64,000 bases of DNA, taken from NCBI GenBank assembly GCA_003963435.1, contig RXJC01000250.1:1-64000 (forward strand), given 5' to 3'. This DNA comes from Bradyrhizobiaceae bacterium. GTDB taxonomy: Bacteria > Pseudomonadota > Alphaproteobacteria > Rhizobiales > Xanthobacteraceae. Both the position numbers and the translations under genes were made by a program. The notes beneath the pieces were generated by a model that worked only from the letters and a program-made list of their open reading frames with translations, was not told the origin of the DNA and did no database searches. This document shows, in pieces, positions 6,190-7,095 of the stretch (position 1 is its first letter; the number at the start of each line of letters is the position of its first letter).

Positions 6190-7095
6190 ATGTCCTATAC
6201 ATCGAGTTCGGCGGAGCGCGCCGATGTCTATACCCGCATCACCGCCGAGATCGTCGCCGCGATCGAAGCTGGCGCCGGCGAATGGCGCATGCCCTGGCAT
6301 CACGACGGCACTGCCATCACCCGTCCTCAGAACGTCTCGTCAGGCAATCGATACCGTGGCGTCAACGTGCTCGCACTCTGGATCGCTGCGCAAGCTCATG
6401 GCTATGCAGACGGCCTCTGGGGAACCTATCGGCAATGGCTGGCTATCGGCGCGCAGGTACGCAAGGGCGAACGAGGAACGACGGTTGTTCTCTGGAAGCA
6501 GGCAAAGGCGGCCGCCAACGATGATGCAGATGATGGTAACGATGATGTTCGTCGCCGCGTCTTTGCACGTGCATTCACGGTGTTCAATGTCGCCCAAGTC
6601 GATGGCTACGAACCTCAGGTCATCGAGCAGCTTCCAGAGATCGATCGCCTCACTCACGTCGGCGAGTTCATCGATGCGCTGAAGATCCCGATCGTCACCG
6701 GCAACTACAATGCACACTACCGCATCGACACCGACACGATCTTCATGCCGGACTACGCGGCATTCACGAGCGCGGCCGCCCAAGCCGGCACCTTGATCCA
6801 TGAGGCAGCTCATGCCACGGGCGCAAAGCACAGGCTCGACCGGAACTTCCAGGAACGGTTCAAGCATGATTGGCTGCCGATCGAAGAAGCCACCGCCGAA
6901 TTGACCGCTTCTTTCATCCTGGCGGATTTGGGTGTCGCCCATCATCCCAGGCCCGATCACGCCGCCTACGTGGCATCTTGGTTACGCCTCCTCAAGGATG
7001 ACCCTCGCGCCATCTTCACCGCCGCCAGCAAAGCCCAGCAGGCGGCTGACTGGATGCATGCCCAGCAGCCTCGGACCGGGGAGATGGCGGCATGA
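6190..7095 (+). CDS. ardC: ArdC family antirestriction protein / zincin-like metallopeptidase (element cargo)
   Basis: Reads MSYTSSSAERADVYTRITAEIVAAIEAGAGEWRMPWH...LIHEAAHATGAKHRLDRNF...; ORF is open from 5920 but homology starts about 6190. Confidence 0.85.
   Translation: MSYTSSSAERADVYTRITAEIVAAIEAGAGEWRMPWHHDGTAITRPQNVSSGNRYRGVNVLALWIAAQAHGYADGLWGTYRQWLAIGAQVRKGERGTTVVLWKQAKAAANDDADDGNDDVRRRVFARAFTVFNVAQVDGYEPQVIEQLPEIDRLTHVGEFIDALKIPIVTGNYNAHYRIDTDTIFMPDYAAFTSAAAQAGTLIHEAAHATGAKHRLDRNFQERFKHDWLPIEEATAELTASFILADLGVAHHPRPDHAAYVASWLRLLKDDPRAIFTAASKAQQAADWMHAQQPRTGEMAA

Follow-up and report, generated by a model that had tools for sequence, protein, structure and literature searches.

The contig RXJC01000250.1 of a Bradyrhizobiaceae bacterium, of which a stretch of 64,000 nucleotides was analysed (hereafter the window), opens within an ardC gene that is interrupted by a mobile element, and a second, complete ardC lies close to the right end of that element. 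The question raised by this locus is why an element that breaks ardC should carry an ardC of its own. A sequence-only reading of the window had proposed that the intact and divergent copy would compensate the host plasmid for the loss or swap antirestriction specificity. The comparisons presented here suggest that the element probably follows a target-proof replacement strategy, breaking ardC and supplying its own ardC altered at the cut site. The alteration of the cargo at the insertion site is a point beyond the earlier reading. The features concerned are listed in the table.

Table. Features of the ardC locus in the window (positions counted from the first nucleotide of the window).
Feature	Position	Strand	Evidence or remark
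Host (backbone) ardC, left piece, ArdC HMM 160-228	1..211 (match 2-211)	+	84.5 bits; PF18818 14-82
Left copy of the 6-bp crossover core GTCGCC (host ArdC codons V-A)	206..211	+	
Whole mobile element, tyrosine-recombinase-trio type	212..7151	+	6,940 bp; ends set by comparison with relatives
Left terminal sequence TTATCTTGACAGTCTGC	212..228	+	Shared by relatives
ginA-like tyrosine recombinase, 480 aa	454..1896	+	PF02899 and PF00589 above cut-off
ginB-like recombinase, 594 aa	1893..3677	+	No Pfam match; position and sequence conserved in relatives
ginC-like recombinase, 721 aa	3674..5839	+	No Pfam match; query that found 80 relatives
Conserved leader ahead of cargo ardC	5885..6189	+	In several relatives, a stretch of about 300 bp at about 80% DNA identity
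Cargo ardC, 301 aa, intact, divergent	6190..7095	+	PF08401 and PF18818 above cut-off; 6i89/6sna E 3e-50
HEAAH metal-binding motif of cargo ArdC	6799..6813	+	Alignment with 6i89/6sna
Altered site EEATAEL in cargo (host form EELVAE[IL]), GAAGAAGCCACCGCCGAATTG	6883..6903	+	
Right terminal sequence GCTAGACTGTCAGGATAT	7134..7151	+	Inverted relative of left end
Right copy of the 6-bp core GTCGCC	7152..7157	+	
Host ardC, middle piece, ArdC HMM 226-258	7152..7253 (match from 7149)	+	34.0 bits
Second trio element, RIT-like; recombinases of 344, 454 and 411 aa, 22-bp inverted repeats	~7280..11099	-	In the same host ardC, at HMM 257/258
Host ardC, C-terminal piece, ArdC HMM 257-283, stop codon	11100..11219 (match 11100-11180)	+	28.1 bits

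The element is bounded by TTATCTTGACAGTCTGC and GCTAGACTGTCAGGATAT, which are imperfect inverted copies of one another and also delimit relatives in many genera, and its ginA-like, ginB-like and ginC-like genes overlap to form one run. An identical element (6940/6940 bp) was found within a different ardC in another genome (L007), indicating that the window element moved recently. In addition, contig L017 consists of exactly one 6,821-bp element unit and nothing else, the form that a collapsed repeat would take. Among the matches listed, the leader lies beside an element-borne ardC, and an Rfam search of window positions 1-12000, leader included, matched no family.

The breakage of the backbone ardC, as the sequence-only reading had described it, was confirmed by the pieces of the ArdC profile that flank the element, both of which are detected independently by PF18818. 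The host gene is in fact broken into three pieces, the first break being due to the window element and the second to the RIT-like trio; since the contig starts within this gene, its 5' half is outside the view. Contig C586 of the same genome also has an additional piece of ardC that lies in two frames and is apparently a decayed gene (G000:C586 110079-110391, L100).

The carried gene was likewise found to be an intact ArdC homolog. The domains and metal ligands of the ArdC family are present in its product, which scores 143.7 bits for the ArdcN domain (PF08401; cut-off 22.6) and 132.4 bits for the MPTase-PolyVal domain (PF18818; cut-off 27.5), and which retains the HExxH and EE metal-ligand motifs in alignment with the solved R388 ArdC structures 6i89 and 6sna. 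Past the third recombinase, the window element has no other recognisable cargo gene before its right end is reached, in agreement with the earlier claim that ardC is its only apparent non-recombinase cargo. Purifying selection acts on the cargo ArdC (median dN/dS of 0.135 across 114 pairs), and the protein would be expected to work and to have anti-restriction activity. Damaged cargo copies also occur (L042, L047, and L061), and these count against the replacement reading.

The sequence-only reading had called for a survey of the pairing between ardC as target and ardC as cargo. A scan of one genome per species (85,488 species) with the third recombinase revealed 80 relatives, and scans of viral contigs one contig with a relative; together with the window, 82 core-family loci were read, the counts being drawn from genome contigs and plasmid records. 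Across the genomes of the class, only the window's own genome matched (1/395). The target was ardC, at the same codons, in 60/60 core-family loci with readable flanks, leaving aside L039, whose flanks are runs of N, and 21 loci with too little flank, while ardC was carried by 60/66 elements with a known right end; these counts are not all independent because many loci are copies within one genome. The insertion point is conserved, with ArdC HMM position 228 the last on the left and about 227 the first on the right (EE[LI][VI]A ^ [VI]AE), so that the 6-bp core, encoding V-A, stands on both sides. In R388 ArdC the EE pair is E228-E229 and the metal is bound by E229 (PMC7213743), which places the insertion site just behind the third metal ligand. 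Joining the flanks without the element restores a full ArdC frame, of 322 codons in the distant element on contig C1 of the window's own genome and of 350 in L090. The ardC genes used as targets are very diverse and fall in the tree among ordinary ArdCs.

The pairing of target and cargo within the window's family fits compensation, although there are a few exceptions in both directions, of the kinds that the sequence-only reading had itself named as refuting it; its interpretation is supported in part. The six elements lacking ardC (L009, L014, L019, L024, L053, and L079) count against the replacement reading, as does the metabolic cargo of L090 from Phaeobacter; of these, L009, L019, L024, L079, and L090 have ardC as their target and carry different cargo or none, and the flanks of L014 and L053 are too short to prove an ardC target. 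Several core-family elements carry extra cargo beyond ardC. On the other side, L091, L108, and L170 carry ardC and target another gene, with a cargo that still reads EECCVEI, which again counts against replacement. Moreover, an independent-pairs test of target against cargo on the GinC tree was not significant, there being few independent origins, and this too weighs against it. Compensation is likely, yet it is not indispensable, given that elements lacking ardC persist and the window's genome holds another full-length ardC on contig C586, a copy that also counts against replacement.

These exceptions bear on an alternative in which the element brings ardC along as ordinary anti-restriction cargo to help itself or its plasmid into new hosts, and not to replace the broken gene, the altered site merely sparing the element's own cargo. 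Besides the three elements that carry ardC without inserting in it, such a role would suit the apparent swapping of element-type ArdCs between lineages, near-identical EECCVEI ArdCs being found with quite different trios. However, it leaves unexplained the near-universal ardC cargo of a family that breaks ardC, and, among the relatives examined, these, which hit other genes, have no ardC cargo (L089, L092, L093, L104-L107, L109, and L110). We regard ordinary cargo as an unlikely explanation.

The strongest support for a replacement role comes from the insertion site within the cargo itself. With a target matrix built from hit sites, mean scores were 27.0 for hit hosts (leave-one-out), 26.0 for untouched ardC, and 10.5 for cargo ardC (p = 3e-11, without correction for kinship). 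Half of the core (three of six letters) is invariant across 40 distinct hit sites; letters never found in hit sites occur in 17/18 distinct cargo sites versus 11/46 untouched ardC controls, the other 35/46 having zero letters foreign to hit sites. Of 29 near-invariant columns, each at least 97% conserved among 85 non-element ArdCs, cargo ArdCs keep 28 at 96-100%, and the sole loss is Ala228 (kept in 15/26), the residue from the second half of the crossover core. Leu226 is kept in 3/26 and Val227 in 2/26, whereas none has lost HExxH or EE. One lineage (L043/L059) is an exception in that its cargo retains a hittable EELVAEL, which counts against a target-proof copy, and a test of element against altered motif was not significant, for want of independent origins.

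Alternatively, the altered site could have been merely inherited from an ArdC subfamily, already divergent and always without the target, that was captured once, with no protective bearing. The carried ArdCs do form one clade in the tree, and this clade departs from other ArdCs at several unrelated columns as well; part of the cargo difference is thus shared descent, a point that counts against the replacement reading. Yet the core residues take many forms within the clade (ATA, CCV, ICA, ACA, LTA, and CTV), whereas most other clade-specific columns are fixed, and L171, a related ArdC that has no neighbouring trio, keeps EEIVAEL. Together with the carried ArdCs of HEGLH type described below, which are near target form at this site and altered at HExxH instead, these data make simple inheritance improbable, more so than ordinary cargo.

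A second family of elements offers a parallel. The element-type ArdCs in plasmids led to a distinct trio that is 24-26% identical, lies in the opposite orientation, has a fourth gene resembling ginD, and splits ardC at the HExxH codons (L172, L173, L211, and L224). The ArdC adjoining this trio reads HEGLH, a form absent from every other intact ArdC examined, while at the site used by the window's family it stays near the target form (EEIVA, EEIIA, EEAIA). Two nested loci connect the families. In L023 (4200-12950), a canonical ardC broken at HExxH contains an HEGLH-type cargo ardC that is itself hit at EEIIA by a first-family element; in L224, the second family has struck at HETGH within an ArdC of EECCVEI type, the two parts of which share 79 and 91% identity with first-family cargo. 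From these loci, each altered copy seems to be protected against its own recombinase yet exposed to that of the other family, in a second-family sample of five loci, probably two lineages. L224, a plasmid of Mesorhizobium sp. L-2-11 with nested HExxH insertions, also holds two N-terminal ardC pieces broken at one codon, together with an unbroken HEGLH ardC and a C-terminal end piece from an ardC of EECCVEI type.

On the evidence of sequence comparison, which covers target, cargo, recent movement, altered site, purifying selection, nested hits and the second-family parallel, the preferred explanation of a target-proof replacement would proceed as follows. The element integrates at conserved ardC codons just past the third metal ligand of ArdC, thereby disrupting an anti-restriction gene common on alphaproteobacterial plasmids. 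Its complete ardC has the site codons changed and the catalytic glutamates retained, so that the element's own recombinases should be unable to use the carried copy; we infer that the altered core blocks recombination. After insertion, the plasmid would retain one working ardC immune to that element, and the replacement would presumably keep the host plasmid transferable. A broader version, held only tentatively and with less than even confidence, is that two distantly related trio families converged on natural break-and-replace at different ardC catalytic motifs, each with cargo immune only to its own recombinase, and that plasmids have been pushed to, and become dependent on, element-borne ardC, as a counterpart of cleave-and-rescue.

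If the replacement reading is true, a selfish element lands on a conserved catalytic motif yet spares the vehicle it needs, and a natural replacement gene has been changed to escape the recombinase of its own carrier. It would also account for the broken ardC genes plus one odd intact copy on many alphaproteobacterial plasmids, and it makes the DNA letters read by GInt-type recombinases testable.

Relatives outside the core family were diverse in target and cargo. The window's own genome harbours a distant trio element (G000:C1 1-15500, L098; 47% GinC identity) with ginD present, which is inserted in ardC and carries an ardC with EECTVEL; plasmids of Bosea sp. AS-1 hold an element nearly identical to it, plus mercury resistance genes. 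The ginD gene is present in outgroup elements L091-L098 and L103-L108. Rhodobacter plasmids (L092, L104, L105, and L106) contain ginD-bearing trio elements with almost no cargo in a conserved plasmid gene, which we take to be DUF6915-like, and the target of L091 and L108 is presumably a DUF932 gene, both assignments being made by recognition of the sequence rather than by family search. In elements of Agrobacterium and the Ti plasmid, the target is a small gene with an EELRA motif; the trios of L089, L109, and L110 (Ti and other Agrobacterium/Sinorhizobium plasmids) are ginD-less, and the DNA of their EELRA site resembles the ardC site. In L176 (pNGR234a), L178 (a Methylocystis rosea plasmid) and L169 (a Rhizobium gallicum plasmid), an element-type ardC is followed by a host ardC C-terminal piece from HMM 227, with no intact first-family trio adjoining; these are apparently remnants of decayed elements whose ardC was left behind.

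The earlier label of the element as GInt-like held in part. The window element shares with GInts (ginABCD; Bardaji et al. 2017, PMC5385486) a left end occupied by three recombinase genes that overlap, with PF00589 in the ginA-like protein, cargo behind them and a short right end, as well as strict site specificity with a 6-bp overlap and short imperfect direct repeats, the core standing on both sides at the same ardC codons (60/60). Its three recombinases all align with those of ginD-bearing GInt-type trios, with low but clear similarity. In GInts, ginD is essential for recombination (PMC5385486), and no frame of at least 90 aa from the ginC stop was found in the window; for this reason the element is not classed as a GInt, although it may work like one. 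It differs further in targeting the catalytic region of ardC, whereas GInts target gene ends, and in the near-constant ardC cargo with changed target site of its family. The lack of ginD could mean that ArdC belongs to the recombination machinery, where it substitutes for GinD, given that ardC follows ginC within 112-354 bp in most members of this ginD-less family. We consider this very improbable, as the C1 and Bosea elements possess both ginD and ardC, and set it aside as the main reading in view of the members that lack ardC, among them the clean-ended L024 (only ~250 bp past ginC), L009, and L019.

The cargo is the same two-domain protein as R388 ArdC (PMC7213743; 6i89, 6sna), with HExxH and EE ligands; it differs in belonging to an element-borne clade and in the changed residues just past the third metal ligand. 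By analogy, engineered cleave-and-rescue gene drives (PMC7951863) would resemble the element in that a target gene is broken and an unbreakable copy supplied. The window case is natural, proceeds by site-specific recombination and takes place in plasmids, so the likeness is one of analogy and not of membership.

In RIT elements, three recombinases lie side by side without cargo, and a phage-integrase domain can be recognised in each of them. The window element also has three adjacent tyrosine recombinases flanked by inverted repeats; however, its proteins are longer (480, 594, and 721 aa), PF00589 is found only in the first and ardC is present as cargo, while the neighbour at 7280-11099 has the RIT features. 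No description of this element or of an ardC-targeting GInt was found in the full-text open-access literature, which is weak evidence that none exists. Certain phages and islands restore the end of the gene they enter, such as e14 in icd and SXT in prfC, and the likeness lies in integration into a coding gene with the loss repaired. Those elements, however, rebuild one end of the target, whereas the window element brings a whole gene apart from the target and leaves the latter broken; for a site-specific bacterial element, a separate, complete and target-proof copy of this kind seems to be new.
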